Shown here one piece after another: positions 1 to 24,671 of a stretch of DNA of 24,671 nt. The stretch is taken from positions 1 to 24,671 of IMG/VR virus record IMGVR_UViG_3300025276_000018; one strand, given 5' to 3'. Below the pieces are notes generated by a model. The model worked only from the letters and a program-made list of their open reading frames with translations. It was not told where the DNA came from and ran no database searches. The first letter of the stretch is position 1; each line of letters starts with the position of its first letter. This DNA comes from a virus. A program made the translations under genes and the position numbers.

Positions 1-127
1 TGTTGGGAGGAGTGTAGCCTAATTCTTCTGCAATCTCACCAGGACTCTTGTGTTGATCAGCAAACATATACCATATAGTTTCTCTAAGCTCATTAACACT
101 GTTGGGATGACTTCTTTTGTTCCATCC
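1..127. repeat. Left copy of the 127-bp terminal overlap (circular contig)
   Basis: Bases 1-127 are identical to bases 24545-24671. The repeat lies inside an open reading frame that stays open across the join, so joining the ends gives a circle of 24,544 bp. An exact 127-bp overlap equals a common maximum assembler k-mer size, so this is more likely an assembly signature of a circular or circularly permuted molecule than a biological terminal repeat. Confidence 0.95.
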
Positions 128-481
128 ACCTGCAGGGTTCTTAGGTCCTATACGCTTGTCATCTAAACTGGGCAGTTTTGCTGTCCATTCACTGCTTCTG
201 TTGTCAATGTTACTGCCTTCATTTACTGATATTTTATATTCTACTTGGCCTAAGGCCATTGGTCTTCTAGTGCGTTGATTGTGTGCTACTAACCATTCAT
301 TGATACAAAGTGCATTTGTGCAACATGCTATGCCGCCATCATACATTATGTACATGTGCCAAGTTCCAGGCATTTCTACTTTAAGTTCTTTTACCCATTC
401 AAAGTAAGTGAGTTTTCTGTAATCTTCAATGTCTACTGTAGCTTTAAAAATATTGCGTATAGCTATTTTTTCTTTGTTCAT
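1..481 (-). CDS. C-terminal sigma-region-4-like helix-turn-helix protein; gene crosses the contig junction
   Basis: Joined across the circle, this gene runs from the ATG at 481 down to base 1 and on from 24544 to a TAA at 24498, giving 175 aa. AAGGAA lies 5 nt before the ATG. Residues about 1-60 contain aromatic-rich strands (FEWVKEL, WHMYIMYDGG) and a CC pair; I recognise no domain there. Residues about 145-173 read SPGEIAEELGY, then PPNIYYHI and a final amphipathic KKMQKML helix, which matches the helix-turn-helix of sigma-70 region 4.2 or LuxR-type proteins. It is the last gene of the long structural transcription unit. Inference: a DNA-binding regulator, possibly linked to the ATAAATA promoter motifs. 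The lack of sigma region 2 means it is not a complete sigma factor. An alternative is a packaging or DNA-end-binding protein. Confidence 0.85.
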   Translation of the reverse strand, partial: MNKEKIAIRNIFKATVDIEDYRKLTYFEWVKELKVEMPGTWHMYIMYDGGIACCTNALCINEWLVAHNQRTRRPMALGQVEYKISVNEGSNIDNRSSEWTAKLPSLDDKRIGPKNPAGGWNKRSHPNSVNELRETIWYMFADQHKSPGEIAEELGYTPPN

Positions 482-20442: not shown

Positions 20443-20634
20443 TTATTTAGCCTTAATTGACTTATAAATTGCATAGAAAGGTAATCTAATAGTGTAGTAT
20501 ACCAGCTTAATACACAATACGCACATTTTAACTGTCCAACTACACACTGTCCAAATTAGGTGTGCGGCCACAGTAAATAAAAATATAAATGGTGCAAATA
20601 TAAAACCTAATAAATGTATAATCCAAATACCCAT
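20443..20634 (-). CDS. Small cationic membrane protein
   Basis: A 63-aa protein, mostly hydrophobic: IIHLLGFIFAPFIFLFTVAA (about 5-24), HLIWTVCSWTVKMCVLCIKL (about 25-44), then YYTIRLPFYAIYKSIKAK with a basic C-terminus. Two membrane passes or one long amphipathic hairpin are likely. It is the last gene of the early-like operon and starts at one of the repeated SD-stop-start junctions. It could be an early membrane-active protein, for instance superinfection exclusion, or a holin. Early placement favours the former, but there is no family match I can name. Confidence 0.75.
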   Translation of the reverse strand: MGIWIIHLLGFIFAPFIFLFTVAAHLIWTVCSWTVKMCVLCIKLVYYTIRLPFYAIYKSIKAK

Positions 20635-22749: not shown

Positions 22750-22775
22750 TATACAGTTTCCTTGTTATATGTTAG

Positions 22776-22783
22776 TATTTATG
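22776..22783 (-). promoter_or_regulatory. CATAAATA motif before the 79-aa gene
   Basis: The minus strand reads CATAAATACTAAC, 27 nt upstream of the ATG at 22749, and resembles T4 late promoters (TATAAATA followed by CTATT). A candidate start for the 22749-21827 gene group. Confidence 0.4.
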
Positions 22784-22847
22784 TTAAATCTATCACGGTC
22801 TAATCTGAGCTTGGCTTAACCCATACACTCAATTGGTTATATACATA

Positions 22848-22864
22848 TCTCTCTTACAGAGAGA
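22848..22864. repeat. Short perfect inverted repeat
   Basis: TCTCTCT and AGAGAGA separated by TAC. It could be an operator or a hairpin in the leader of the 79-aa gene. Confidence 0.5.
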
Positions 22865-22960
22865 AAACATCAAACAACAACAACTTCATTACATTCAGTT
22901 GTTTTTTGTTTATCTGTTTAATTTACTGCTCTTCCTTTCAAAGGAACATTAAACATTTAA

Positions 22961-22988
22961 TTGATATATTATATGTTTTATATATACT
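22961..22988 (+). promoter_or_regulatory. Plus-strand sigma-70-like promoter
   Basis: TTGATA (22961-22966), a 16-bp spacer and TATACT (22983-22988); each hexamer has five of six consensus bases. It would start RNA near 22995, just ahead of the AbrB/MazE-like frame. It is the only credible plus-strand promoter I found, but the region is AT-rich. Confidence 0.4.
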
Positions 22989-23017
22989 TGATCTTTCAGT
23001 CATAGGATACCAACACA

Positions 23018-23136
23018 GTGGCATCCAAAAAAAAAGACTTTTCAGTCAATTAAGGAAAGCAGGTAATTGTTTAGTAGTACAAGGTAATATGCTAATGGAC
23101 TTTGGACTTGTCCCACCTGCAACAGTTGTTTTATAG
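23018..23136 (+). CDS. Possible AbrB/MazE-like peptide read through an A9 slip (or broken)
   Basis: A GTG at 23018 with AGGA 10 nt upstream begins VASKKK, then meets a run of nine A (23027-23035). In that frame a stop follows soon. In the -1 frame (or with one more A) the product continues RLFSQLRKAGNCLVVQGNML, then MDFGLVPPATVVL to a TAG at 23136. LRKAGNCLVV followed by FGL.P...V.L follows the AbrB/MazE (SpoVT) swapped-hairpin pattern (LRK.GNSL.V...P...L..LGL..GD.V.L), although the conserved Pro and Gly-Asp are missing and it is about two residues short. It would be a DNA-binding regulator or antitoxin of some 40 aa. The A-run may instead be only the U-tract of a minus-strand terminator. Treat as a hypothesis. 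Confidence 0.3.
23027..23047 (-). terminator. Short-stem terminator-like site with nine U
   Basis: The minus strand reads GACT-GAAA-AGTC followed by nine T. The stem is only 4 bp but has a GNRA loop and a long U-tract. It would end RNA started at the 23353-23383 promoter. Confidence 0.4.
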
Positions 23137-23348
23137 TGCCACGTATCTGGAACACTTTTATAGCTTACCTAGTGTTCTGACTTGAACACCAAAGGATCCG
23201 TATGTAGCAATGCATACTATATGTGTGCGTTTATTAAGCGCCTTTTCCACAGCGGTATTATATATCCGGCCCGCTAACCTTATGTTGCTATTGTGAGGGT
23301 TCTGTATTAGTTGTTGAAAGTGTTTTTATTAGCCAATGTTAGTATTGT
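23027..23348 (-). ncRNA. Candidate structured RNA of about 320 nt
   Basis: Bounded by the strong promoter at 23355-23383 and the U9 site. No minus-strand frame with a ribosome site is seen inside. Four local hairpins follow one another: AGCGG/CCGCT (23251-23275), GTATG/CATAC (23200-23217), GTGTTC/GAACAC (23172-23189) and AGTGCC/GGaaCACT (23135-23156). The hairpin density and the lack of a gene after so strong a promoter suggest a functional RNA or a long regulatory leader of the 22749 genes. It resembles no RNA family I know; a GTTCAAGTC near 23180 is not part of a tRNA fold. Confidence 0.35.
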
Positions 23349-23352
23349 GTTA

Positions 23353-23383
23353 ACAGTATAGCAACCATATGCTATACTGTCAA
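23353..23383 (-). promoter_or_regulatory. Sigma-70 promoter P2 inside a perfect 28-bp palindrome
   Basis: TTGACA (23378-23383), a 17-bp spacer and TATACT (23355-23360). The interval 23353-23380 is an inverted repeat with 10-bp arms ACAGTATAGC and GCTATACTGT around an 8-bp centre, covering the -10, the spacer and part of the -35. That is a classical repressor operator position. Related half-sites occur around the -10 of P3. Confidence 0.85.
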
Positions 23384-23388
23384 GTTTT

Positions 23389-24257: not shown

Positions 24258-24286
24258 ATTATAACATTATTATCAGTGGTTGTCAA
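24258..24286 (-). promoter_or_regulatory. Consensus sigma-70 promoter P1
   Basis: TTGACA (24281-24286), a 17-bp spacer and TATAAT (24258-24263), a perfect match on the minus strand, with the -10 inside GTTATTATAAC. It lies just after the terminator at 24299 and starts the first early-like unit near 24251. Confidence 0.92.
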
Positions 24287-24298
24287 CCTTTAGTCAAG

Positions 24299-24331
24299 AA
24301 AAAACCCAACATAGTTTCCTGTGTTGGGTTT
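24299..24331 (-). terminator. Strong intrinsic terminator
   Basis: The minus strand folds AAACCCAACA with TGTTGGGTTT, a perfect 10-bp stem with a 10-nt loop, followed by T residues. It ends the long structural transcript, the small RNA from P4, or both. Confidence 0.93.
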
Positions 24332-24476
24332 GGCTGTATGAAGTAATAATGGGCAAGTATGTCTGCTGAATCTCAACCGTCTTATTTAAAAGACAACAAT
24401 ATAACATTGAAAGGAGCTGCCACCAAATGGAAGGCAATAACCCTCATACAACTTTAAGTTAAAAGTTTAACTTACA
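24299..24476 (-). ncRNA. Candidate phage small RNA of about 178 nt
   Basis: Bracketed by the sigma-70 promoter at 24483-24511 and the terminator at 24299-24331, with no minus-strand frame that has a ribosome site. Predicted elements in order: a 5' inverted repeat TAAGTTAAA/TTTAACTTA (24455-24474); a TGCC/GGCA hairpin (about 24419-24438); an unpaired stretch containing AGCTCCTTTCAATG, complementary to Shine-Dalgarno sites such as GAAAGGAG; a GTCTT/AAGAC hairpin (about 24378-24395); and the terminator. This resembles a trans-acting bacterial small RNA with an exposed anti-SD seed. It could alternatively be just a 3' untranslated region. Confidence 0.5.
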
Positions 24477-24482
24477 TATATA

Positions 24483-24511
24483 TTTATACACTATAAGTTA
24501 TACTTTGTCAA
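24483..24511 (-). promoter_or_regulatory. Sigma-70 promoter P4 overlapping the end of the last gene
   Basis: TTGACA (24506-24511), a 17-bp spacer and TATAAA (24483-24488). The -35 lies in the final codons of the helix-turn-helix gene. The -10 also forms TATAAATA (24481-24488), an exact T4-late-type octamer, so it could serve both early and late phases. Confidence 0.75.
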
Positions 24512-24671
24512 GCATTTTTTGCATCTTTTTTATATGATAATAAATGTTGGGAGGAGTGTAGCCTAATTCTTCTGCAATCTCACCAGGACTCTTGTGTTGA
24601 TCAGCAAACATATACCATATAGTTTCTCTAAGCTCATTAACACTGTTGGGATGACTTCTTTTGTTCCATCC
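24498..24671 (-). CDS. 3' end of the helix-turn-helix gene (duplicate of 1-127 included)
   Basis: This is the continuation of the gene at 1-481. Only 24498-24544 is new sequence and encodes the last 15 residues (IYYHIKKMQKMLDKV) and the TAA. The part from 24545 repeats bases 1-127. Without joining the ends, the gene would look truncated at both contig edges. Confidence 0.9.
   Translation of the reverse strand, partial: GWNKRSHPNSVNELRETIWYMFADQHKSPGEIAEELGYTPPNIYYHIKKMQKMLDKV
24545..24671. repeat. Right copy of the 127-bp terminal overlap
   Basis: Identical to bases 1-127, see the left copy. It should be trimmed when the genome is closed. Confidence 0.95.

Follow-up and report, generated by a model that had tools for sequence, protein, structure and literature searches.

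We identified a structured noncoding RNA, previously undescribed, that is encoded with its own promoter and terminator in a family of small phages of marine type, most of them uncultured. The analysis started from the window, i.e. the whole 24,671-nucleotide stretch of phage DNA under study, and rests on sequence comparison. Judged on this basis, the RNA probably blocks mRNA translation during infection. The reading that we favour, with moderate confidence, is that it is an independently transcribed, structured small RNA (sRNA) directed against ribosome-binding sites (RBSs), which would repress translation in trans. The RNA shows the sequence traits of the anti-Shine-Dalgarno (anti-SD) sRNA class: it has its own promoter and terminator, appears structured and noncoding, and carries a conserved seed that is predicted to be exposed. 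Little work has been done on the noncoding RNAs of small environmental phages, and a conserved phage RNA that is the complement of an RBS would amount to protein-free control of translation during infection.

A predicted independent transcription unit in a family of small phages

The window contig ends in a 127-bp direct repeat (bases 1-127 are identical to 24545-24671), which indicates a complete, circle-type assembly of 24,544 bp. The genome is that of a small siphovirus with terminase, portal, scaffold, capsid, tail tube, tape measure and tail-tip genes; the phage genes lie on the minus strand, as do all features of the sRNA (Table 1). No replication gene was recognised in the window next to this full structural set, and relatives of 24-27 kb resemble the window phage in both respects. 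The nearest GenBank relatives of the portal protein, at ~38% identity, are from four Pelagibacter phages and the uncultured phage DSL-LC06. The portal had no homologs in the prokaryote genomes searched, so no host was assigned. For the helix-turn-helix (HTH) protein encoded directly upstream of the RNA, homologs were found neither in GenBank phages nor in 84,980 prokaryote genomes.

Table 1. Coordinates of the RNA locus in the window
Feature	Position	Strand	Remarks
HTH protein gene, 3' part	24498..24671	-	175 aa; 5' part wraps round to window 1-481; Pfam HTH_5, E 6e-6
sRNA promoter, TTGACA-17-TATAAA	24483..24511	-	From sequence; overlaps 3' end of HTH gene (stop codon ends at 24498)
Noncoding RNA	24299..24476	-	178 nt; predicted to begin 7 nt past the -10 box and to stop at the T run of the terminator
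P1, 5' hairpin	24456..24473	-	Short in the window; large in most relatives, with a UUCUCC-bearing loop
P2 closing stem, 5' strand (GUUGUAUGAGG)	24442..24452	-	From fold
P3 hairpin, UUGCC...GGCAG	24417..24437	-	Ends directly before CUCC; 3-5 pair types per position
CAU (complement of AUG) in P3 loop	24427..24429	-	10 nt before CUCC in the window
CUCC, candidate anti-SD seed	24413..24416	-	Invariant in the family
P5 hairpin, GCAG...UUGC, then CC	24353..24366	-	GCAG/CUGC or GCC(U)/(A)GGC alternation in 21/22
P2 closing stem, 3' strand	24334..24344	-	From fold
Intrinsic terminator (hairpin + T6)	24299..24331	-	From sequence and fold
Second promoter, TTGACA-17-TATAAT	24258..24286	-	Consensus match 12/12; directly after the terminator, serves the downstream operon

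Relatives were collected from IMG/VR by means of the downstream gene, the HTH gene and one DNA pattern, which gave about 30 loci with 22 distinct RNAs, the window's own included; a loose scan with a DNA pattern returned chance matches only. For whole-genome comparison with the window we used six contigs of 24-27 kb, and all seven genomes have 18 gene groups in common besides one repetitive group. Synteny and the promoter/terminator architecture are kept at the 22 distinct loci. In the window, the RNA is flanked on one side by the 3' end of the HTH gene and on the other by another sigma-70-like promoter, which belongs to the next operon. The original prediction, made from the window alone, had placed a near-consensus promoter on the end of the last gene and a strong terminator downstream, with no coding frame in between, and all of this was confirmed. 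In all 22 distinct RNAs TTGACA is followed at a spacing of exactly 17 nt by TATAAA, TATCAT or TATAAT. The relatives likewise possess a terminator-like hairpin with a T run, and nearly all of them have a similar sigma-70-like promoter behind it. None of the open reading frames in the ~178 nt is conserved, and most relatives have ATA where the window has its ATG at 24447.

Because it lies in an operon gap whose neighbours are transcribed in the same direction, the RNA could be a mere leader or tail of the adjacent mRNAs without a function of its own. We regard this as very improbable given the invariant dedicated promoter, the terminator and the covarying helices described below, all of which persist even though the HTH proteins encoded immediately upstream in the relatives are only ~25-44% identical to that of the window.

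It had also been argued that a long gap with its own promoter and terminator is hard to explain in such a compact genome. The gap is real, but the genome is not uniformly compact, as a second intergenic gap of 639 nt is present at 22750-23388 (minus strand). This second gap has a near-consensus promoter over a palindrome (23383-23355) and contains the blocks ATAATACTAACATTGGCTAATA, ACAGAACCC, ATGTTCC and TTTTGATGTTT, which are conserved in three of the related genomes (G002, G003, G006); it may represent another noncoding RNA or an origin. Elsewhere, a junction with the sequence GGAGACAGCGTAATG occurs between small accessory genes, where the upstream protein ends in ETA*, its stop codon overlaps the next ATG and the SD sequence lies inside. 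Three copies are found in the window (near 20634, 20852 and 21175, minus strand) and others in G003, G006 and G007; it has the appearance of a swap junction used repeatedly for cassette genes.

Searches for this RNA outside the family were negative. Rfam, which includes the alpha-r14/cuckoo family and c4, has no entry for it: the Rfam check proposed at the outset gave no match to any known family at the gathering threshold in the window, and relaxing E up to 5 yielded only chance-level matches in the six loci scanned. No tRNA or tmRNA was detected, and literature searches retrieved no description of the RNA. A covariance model of 42 positions, covering the 5' half of the RNA and built without the divergent member L023, matches the noncoding RNA in the window and finds the family members in the relatives except L023. 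The same model gave nothing above chance level in the six most closely related GenBank phages examined, namely Pelagibacter phages HTVC202P, 112P, 026P and 111P, DSL-LC06 and a Vibrio phage. At the DNA level, the only similarity to GenBank phages was a 70-bp match of the promoter stretch (window 24466-24535) to an intergenic promoter region of Streptococcus phage smHBZ8 (84.5% over 70 bp, E 2e-10), around which no related genes were noticed; it probably reflects convergence of AT-rich promoters. The most diverged locus (L017, 4490-4690) keeps a noncoding gap with CUCC-bearing hairpins, while the core domain and the TTGACA promoter are absent. One of its hairpin loops is ACAUUCUCCAAAUGU and another GACUCCAAUC.

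Covariation in the RNA fold

The window RNA folds at -50.8 kcal/mol, with a z-score of -3.8 relative to dinucleotide shuffles, and the mean folding z-score over the 22 family members is -4.6. The overall architecture consists of the 5' hairpin P1, followed by a closing stem, P2, around P3, a variable P4 and P5, which together form a closed multiloop. In P2, both sides have changed in 3 of 11 pairs.

The clearest evidence comes from P3, which is paired at every cell (100%) in all 18 distinct rows. This is a register-corrected count, for which we set the register manually to follow the pairing and, in three rows, deleted one A that separated the helix from CUCC in order to keep the columns aligned, a procedure that works in favour of the observed value. 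When the 5' strands were permuted in the identical register, a mean of 57.6% and a maximum of 80% of the cells were paired, and sliding the register gave 19-43%. The pairing is maintained by 12 different helices whose sequence has fully turned over (UUGCC/GGCAG, CUUGG/CCAAG, CUAGG/CCUAG, CCACA/UGUGG, UUACG/CGUAG, CAAGG/CCUUG and others), and the presence of U-G pairs in several rows points to RNA rather than DNA as the conserved entity.

Sequence drift without conserved pairing in relatives had been named as the finding that would count against a functional RNA. The reverse was observed, namely compensatory changes together with the same hairpins, promoter and terminator across 22 RNAs, and the several hairpins foreseen in the window were borne out by the fold and by pairing conserved among relatives. 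On the evidence of covariation in these sequences, we conclude that this is a real structured RNA family.

A candidate anti-Shine-Dalgarno seed and a start codon complement

The tetramer CUCC is invariant in all 22 distinct RNAs. It lies directly 3' of P3, at a distance of 0-1 nt, as one invariant block inside the multiloop and away from a second conserved element, GGGU, that is next to the closing stem. No other tetramer is as strongly over-represented in the family as CUCC (29 occurrences versus 4.1 expected). The block had originally been described as an unpaired CUCCUUUC. In the window the CUCC part is clearly exposed, with a mean unpaired probability of 0.80, but the UUUC that follows is not (0.43), as it is partly in the next helix. 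In predicted ensembles the unpaired probability of CUCC is 0.74-0.99 in 16 of 19 members and lower in L005, L034 and L036. The seed, at 4 nt, is short, and in these three members it would be partly hidden by the predicted pairing.

The window has one CUCC, while its relatives have 1-3 copies. The extra copies are in non-homologous places: the P1 domain in most relatives, the terminator loop of L026 and L203, and P4 of L014. Such recurrence in non-homologous loops is what seeds would show, unlike a fixed tertiary contact. This bears on the possibility that we are dealing with a structural or catalytic RNA of the phage cycle, such as a replication primer or packaging RNA, in which CUCC, GGGU and GCCC are kept for tertiary contacts or protein binding. 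It would suit a genome in which no replication genes were recognised, and GGGU and GCCC are indeed conserved besides CUCC. Nevertheless, we consider this option unlikely, as CUCC recurs in other loops of the same RNAs, L023 has lost both GGGU and GCCC while retaining the P3 hairpin with CUCC, and the RNA possesses its own promoter and terminator.

A second element, CAU, is present in P3 of every member on the 3' side of the loop (in L023 partly in the stem). The arrangement CAU-N7-CUCC is exact in 16 of 22 members, the remaining ones having 5, 8, 9 or 10 nt, and its chance occurrence per sequence is 1.5-8% in dinucleotide shuffles. CAU-N7-CUCC is the reverse complement of GGAG-N7-AUG, and in the phages' own genes the spacing from GGAG to AUG peaks at 7-8 nt. 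In the window itself the spacing is 10 nt, not 7. Retention of CAU is weaker evidence than that of CUCC, given so short a motif and the relatedness of the sequences. The CAU at RBS-like spacing, the extra CUCC loops and the conserved second promoter are new relative to the original prediction.

Read on the opposite strand, the same geometry could be a real RBS, GGAG-N7-AUG, of a small peptide, and a good RBS with an ATG is readable in every relative. This explanation is extremely improbable, as promoter, terminator and genes point the other way. The candidate peptides were rejected: the frames comprise 2-21 codons and differ between relatives (MK*, MN*, MS*, MNFQV*, MEGNNPHTTLS*), with no conserved frame among them. 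The RNA could also act as a sponge that titrates a host sRNA or another GGAG-carrying RNA instead of mRNAs, for which the phage-encoded AgvB and AsxR are precedents (PMC12197685; PMC12559287). We think this quite improbable, because the CAU-N7-CUCC geometry fits translation starts and, with no host assigned, no GGAG-bearing host sRNA can be named.

For the favoured anti-RBS sRNA, we envisage that host sigma-70 RNA polymerase would transcribe the RNA from the near-consensus promoter, and that the intrinsic terminator would end it and insulate the next promoter. The transcript would fold into the 5' hairpin and the closed multiloop, in which CUCC lies at the base of P3 and CAU in the P3 loop. 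CUCC could then pair with the GGAG of SD sequences and CAU with the start codon, so that the RNA would occupy translation initiation regions in trans and keep ribosomes from loading on a number of phage and/or host messages. When targets were predicted by duplex energy in the seven genomes, no orthologous phage gene consistently came out on top. This counts against the favoured reading as regards specificity, and it fits a broad effect or host targets.

A more specific and tentative idea, which we regard as possible though rather doubtful, is that the RNA is a generic two-point anti-RBS device. P3 would serve as a ruler, presenting CAU to the start codon and CUCC to the SD sequence with the natural 7-nt spacing between them and so mimicking the anticodon loop of initiator tRNA together with the 16S rRNA tail. 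In some members P3 is a 5-bp stem with a 7-nt loop (AUCAUUG or UUCAUUG) that resembles the anticodon arm of initiator tRNA, and this is a resemblance only. If the idea were true, the phage would throttle translation initiation broadly and not that of one gene. The outcome of the analysis is a concrete structure, a seed and a point-mutant set, along with a covariance model that can be used on metatranscriptomes.

Relation to known antisense regulators

The closest parallels are the alpha-r14/NfeR1 'cuckoo' sRNAs of Alphaproteobacteria, which share with the phage RNA several hairpins, hypervariable stems, an unpaired anti-SD motif (ultraconserved in alpha-r14) and a sigma-70 promoter, and which repress through translation initiation regions (PMC10746234; PMC7143759). 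Sinorhizobium NfeR1 acts through unpaired anti-SD seeds, with variable stems, and has three redundant anti-SD motifs (PMC10746234); by analogy, the additional CUCC copies of the phage RNA would be in keeping with a seed that can serve at more than one position. The combination of variable stems with an invariant anti-SD motif is found in the phage family too (12 P3 helices, invariant CUCC). However, the alpha-r14 sRNAs are bacterial and have CCUCCUCCC in hairpin loops, whereas the phage RNA has CUCC at a hairpin base in a closed multiloop and CAU in a loop. Instead of three hairpins each with an unpaired CCUCCUCCC, it has CUCC only, and its score does not exceed the Rfam gathering threshold.

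The c4 antisense RNA of phages P1 and P7 is likewise phage-encoded and structured and pairs around the RBS, with its complementary stretches probably in loops (PMC12197685). It has one target, the ant mRNA, whereas for the phage RNA no single conserved target was found. Complementarity to one neighbouring gene and a match to the c4 model in Rfam are both lacking, and the downstream gene varies between relatives. AbcR1/AbcR2 and SisA-D share anti-SD motifs (in AbcR, in unpaired regions) and many targets (PMC7143759; PMC12559287), but they are host-encoded with another motif, and AbcR has a three-stem-loop fold without a closed multiloop. DicF of the Qin prophage in E. coli is also phage-derived and blocks translation of messages such as ftsZ (PMC12197685; PMC5069750); it differs in being located inside the dicB operon and in its gene-specific pairing, and no CUCC/CAU architecture is described for it. 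Since CCUCCUCCC loops and an Rfam match are absent, we file the phage RNA with neither alpha-r14/cuckoo nor c4. The best reading by analogy is that it would work in the manner of the anti-SD sRNAs (alpha-r14/NfeR1, AbcR, SisA) and of c4, while being a member of neither family.
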